From Albula goreensis (Eukaryota > Chordata > Actinopteri > Albuliformes > Albulidae), in the NCBI GenBank assembly GCA_022829145.1, contig CM040763.1, positions 9,595,141 through 9,659,140 of the forward strand: a DNA stretch of 64,000 bases. Direction: 5' to 3'. Position 1 is the first letter of the stretch. Every line of letters begins with the position of its first letter. Of this stretch, positions 31,260-49,337 are shown in pieces. The notes beneath the pieces are model-generated. The model was not told where the DNA came from. It was given only the letters and a program-made list of their open reading frames with translations, and did not search any database. The position numbers and the translations under genes were made by a program.

Positions 31260-49337
<18,078 letters not shown>

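Follow-up and report, generated by a model that had tools for sequence, protein, structure and literature searches.

The plus strand of the analysed window (64,000 nucleotides of Albula goreensis contig CM040763.1) carries the rwdd4 gene at positions 46181-49337, encoding a protein with an N-terminal RWD domain (Pfam match to PF05773 over residues 5-107, E 3.2e-22). Joining eight exons (Table 1) gives a clean reading frame of 186 codons and a stop codon (561 nt including the stop). The start codon was picked by likeness to what we take RWDD4 to look like, and a further in-frame ATG lies 15 nt upstream of it, at 46166. The donor of intron 5 (47941-47949) appears to belong either to a true GC-AG intron or to an assembly base error, and in this intron an in-frame TGA at 47973 precedes the first GT at 47988. 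Elsewhere in the window, on the minus strand at 9182-30154, there are several reading frames which by eye resemble tandem SLC22-type transporter exons.

Table 1. Features of rwdd4 and of the mpc1 control loci (a slash marks an exon boundary; minus numbers are distances from the microexon acceptor)
Feature	Position	Strand	Details
rwdd4 exon 1, coding part	46181-46204	+	MAANEDQE
rwdd4 exon 2	46721-46801	+	donor AGG/gtgagc
rwdd4 exon 3	46925-47034	+	donor AAT/gtaagt
rwdd4 exon 4	47407-47557	+	donor GTG/gtcagt
rwdd4 exon 5	47835-47943	+	non-canonical GC donor CAG/gccaga
rwdd4 exon 6	48381-48430	+	ends GWDWVDVIK; donor AAG/gtaaag
rwdd4 intron 6	48431-48766	+	336 nt
AG-free zone ending at microexon acceptor	48631-48764	+	134 nt
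Branch-point-like yUnAy matches (span)	48672-48736	+	A at -92, -82, -78, -38, -32; motif match only
CU-rich tract, -68 to -44	48699-48723	+	21/25 pyrimidines; CTCTCT twice
rwdd4 putative microexon CAT (His)	48767-48769	+	3 nt
Donor of the CAT microexon	48770-48775	+	gtaagt
rwdd4 intron 7	48770-49304	+	535 nt
rwdd4 exon 8, last coding exon	49305-49337	+	10 residues and stop; starts tttttttag/CTTAGC
4-nt CACG exon candidate, mpc1	L011:8779-8782		
4-nt CACG exon candidate, mpc1	L012:9691-9694		

The seventh of these exons would be a single codon, well inside the limit for a microexon (30 nt or less for an internal exon). The initial annotation had placed a CAT triplet between tgcag and gtaagt, which proved exact (ctccatgcag(CAT)gtaagttctc), and had read it as a frame-neutral 3-nt exon supplying a histidine between VIK and LSKTG, which the sequence supports as the best reading; the joins of CAT to exons 6 and 8 are both in phase 0. 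In the protein of 186 residues the histidine would take position 176, close to the C-terminal end. We take the RWDD4 C-terminus to be GWxWVDVxKHLSKTG, including this histidine, and presume that the residue is conserved across RWDD4 proteins. A longer neighbouring exon, named beforehand as the route by which the histidine might arise without a microexon, is ruled out by the in-frame flanking codons: the codon immediately 5' of exon 8 is TAG and those 3' of exon 6 are GTA AAG (V-K), so the neighbours cannot give histidine and the remaining options are inclusion of the triplet or its skipping, which would also stay in frame, the junction of exon 6 with exon 8 being in phase 0.

All bit scores and ranks given here rest on vertebrate splice-site weights. 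By these the CAT acceptor (7.5 bits) and donor (8.8 bits) are usable AG and GT sites, the acceptor ranking second among the seven of rwdd4; the six other acceptors score 3.1-9.3 bits and the five other GT donors 6.0-9.4, against 1.4 for exon 5 with its GC donor. A point against the exon is that CAT itself is a poor match to the exonic part of the donor consensus. Between exons 6 and 8 (874 nt) there are two AG-NNN-GT sites and a single AG-CAY-GT, the CAT site. Over both strands of the window its summed score is third among 500 AG-NNN-GT sites (502 were found, and two too close to the ends were omitted). The highest-scoring is on the minus strand at 4579 (tacag(CTG)gtaagg), about 0.7 kb upstream, in the minus-strand sense, of a reading frame at 3487-3909 which is presumably storkhead-box-like; the other higher-scoring site, at 52322 on the minus strand, lies antisense to plus-strand positions 52230-52349, a stretch of 120 nt which is open in one frame and has AG and GT at its flanks.

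The triplet might be a chance match, in which case transcripts would join 48430 directly to 49305, in frame, giving VIK-LSKTG. Among 20,000 introns simulated with a first-order Markov model of the same composition as the real one, 2,223 carried some AG-CAY-GT, which speaks for chance, but only 12 combined it with an AG-free zone of at least 100 nt and only one held an AG-CAY-GT scoring as high as the CAT site. The real AG-free zone is exceptional too, as just 3 of the window's 4,275 plus-strand AG gaps reach its 134 nt, and the residue supplied is presumably the right one. We consider a chance match improbable. The zones at the six other rwdd4 acceptors measure 24-60 nt, and the longest plus-strand AG-free gap of the window is one of 263 nt at 21433-21695.

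A 3-nt exon would be too small for U1 and U2AF to sit side by side in the usual way, and a branch point and pyrimidine tract lying farther back, with a long AG-free run up to the acceptor, would be a way round this. Such a tract is present in intron 6 (Table 1). In human MPC1 the region at -67 to -43 of a 4-nt microexon is pyrimidine-rich (22/25), branching is mainly at -68 and -63, and a donor of 6 nt suffices (PMC9929638); the same -67 to -43 interval at the CAT acceptor holds 20/25 pyrimidines. No yUnAy match was found at -60 to -70, where MPC1 branches, in our scan of the zone upstream of CAT with this motif, which matched at the five positions tabulated; this counts against the exon. We suggest that the branch point and U2/U2AF would assemble upstream, probably at a distal site, that the first downstream AG would then be used, and that the consensus GTAAGT donor would recruit U1, with the short introns helping.

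Acceptor and donor almost abut at CAT, and the MPC1 sites are still spliced when their exon is shortened to 0 nt (PMC9929638), features which would also suit a recursive-splicing point, used to take the intron out in two stages with CAT discarded along the way. The interval is merely 874 nt, however, and loss of CAT would need a donor at AAG/CAT, which is not GT; we consider this reading very improbable.

As a control, the Albula goreensis genome was searched with the human MPC1 protein, which gave two loci whose upstream DNA was then scanned. In both mpc1 copies the first exon ends in ATG AG and the next begins with CAC TTC TGG. A narrower pattern (TAYG) had no match between these exons; with a wider pattern, chosen after TAYG failed and from among nine AG-NNNN-GT sites per intron, both copies yielded AG(CACG)gtgagg, completing Ser-Thr to give M-S-T-H. 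Judged from sequence, these CACG sites are likely counterparts of the human MPC1 microexon. Like the rwdd4 CAT they have long AG-free zones, of 87 nt (the longest of 155 gaps) and 94 nt (third of 131) in their respective stretches, and at -68 to -44 they are less pyrimidine-rich (18/25 and 16/25). Over 103,782 bases on both strands, made up of the window and four stretches at the mpc1 loci, an AG-free zone of at least 80 nt preceded 17 sites (12 of 825 AG-NNN-GT and 5 of 784 AG-NNNN-GT), and four of these 17 also had a GTRAG donor: the rwdd4 CAT, the two mpc1 sites and a CAA at L011:1201. The signature is thus rare and falls at the places where it is expected, save for one unexplained place in approximately 104 kb. 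That place, upstream of one mpc1 copy, reads AG(CAA)gtgagc after an AG-free zone of 86 nt and resembles a 3-nt exon. The presence of such a site in the mpc1 flanks is a point on the side of chance for CAT as well.

If the exon is genuine, its use may still be regulated, with CAT included mainly in some tissues, for example in neurons under SRRM3/4, PTBP1 or RBFOX, and the histidine gained or lost by tissue. GCATG is the RBFOX core motif; one copy (at 48766) overlaps the exon and others lie at -296 (as TGCATG) and +239, but the motif is common, with 79 copies on the window's plus strand. Skipping of CAT would be frame-neutral, and yet the presence of the histidine in what we take to be canonical RWDD4 would suggest inclusion by default. 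Exons of the SRRM4 type are described as having a long AG-free zone, a UCUC-rich tract and UGC near the acceptor (PMC8797185), and the CAT exon resembles them in all three, with UGC at -20 and -5. Thymine makes up 27% at -20 to -5 of the CAT acceptor and is more frequent farther upstream, with no T run at 10-20 nt upstream; one survey (PMC4317164) describes low thymine beside the exon and more beyond as a mark of alternative rather than constitutive microexons. In that survey the constitutive ones are richer in thymine at 5-20 nt upstream, and 96% of them have a U2AF2-like motif at a distance of 10-20 nt. The thymine profile of the CAT exon is thus that of alternative microexons in that survey and, together with the SRRM4-type features and GCATG over the exon, makes tissue-regulated use the main rival to mainly constitutive use. 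Against this, the distal tract and branch point also occur in the MPC1 exon, whose skipping was undetected in 786-O cells and whose inclusion was near-complete in further lines (PMC9929638), so those features do not separate constitutive from regulated use. The strong splice sites and short introns of CAT fit the constitutive profile, human constitutive microexons having strong splice sites and shorter introns (PMC4317164). We regard regulated use as a minority possibility, counted within the probability given below for a genuine exon.

Searches for copies and relatives were also made. No rwdd4 retrocopy was found in the 932-Mb genome of the fish itself among the best candidates scored, either with the protein (its 5 matches are exons of the rwdd4 gene in the window) or with the last exon and 3' UTR (1 match, the window), so that no natural cDNA copy turned up to show the spliced order. 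Pattern searches for relatives gave 72 stretches in GTDB contigs and 7 in IMG/VR, none of which was confirmed. The Protein Data Bank gave 12 distinct sequences with E no higher than 10, 7 of them RWD-domain chains (RWDD1, RNF25, RWDD3 and GCN2), and none among the matches listed covered residue 176, which also lies beyond the Pfam match. Four beta-lactamases in the same search, and ARPP19, which matched residues 127-171 at E 0.38, were judged to be chance. Among the 40 papers listed of 47 naming RWDD4 no title concerned splicing, no paper was found joining RWDD4 with microexons, the broader searches had no RWDD4 among the matches listed (40 of 120 and 20 of 148), and no paper was found by any of six RWDD4 peptide strings, although gene databases may still carry the exon.

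On the strength of the DNA sequence we give a probability of about 0.88 that the CAT triplet is a real coding exon of 3 nt in the mature rwdd4 mRNA, and we hold that it is most likely included in most transcripts, as a mainly constitutive exon. A bolder proposal, that a one-codon exon is held under selection across vertebrates and switches one C-terminal histidine of RWDD4 on and off through tissue-regulated splicing, seems to us doubtful. One-codon exons probe exon definition by the spliceosome where an exon has no space for its two sides. Read mapping readily loses them, leaving predicted proteins one residue short. The initial annotation expects nearly all gene finders to miss such an exon, and one microexon survey excluded exons of less than 6 nt from analysis (PMC4317164). 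With its short introns and neutral frame, the rwdd4 CAT exon would be a compact model alongside MPC1.

The exon would be a further case of a rare but known kind of tiny exon, possibly already annotated in human or zebrafish RWDD4. Exons of 3 nt are described for NCAM in mouse and rat and for troponin T and homothorax in Drosophila (PMC7392893 and PMC8042270), and for human TLN1 (PMC4317164). The NCAM, troponin T and homothorax exons share their length with the rwdd4 CAT but are, in those texts, alternatively spliced, whereas that of rwdd4 would be mainly constitutive. A difference from SRRM3/4-dependent neural microexons (PMC8797185) is that the CAT acceptor is not weak, at 7.5 bits by the weights used here. 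The human MPC1 microexon is likewise a tiny coding exon with its pyrimidine tract distant from the acceptor (PMC9929638). The two differ in that the rwdd4 exon has 3 nt rather than 4 and is frame-neutral, so that its skipping would shift no frame, and in that it lies between introns of 336 and 535 nt, compared to more than 12 kb and 3 kb beside the human MPC1 exon.
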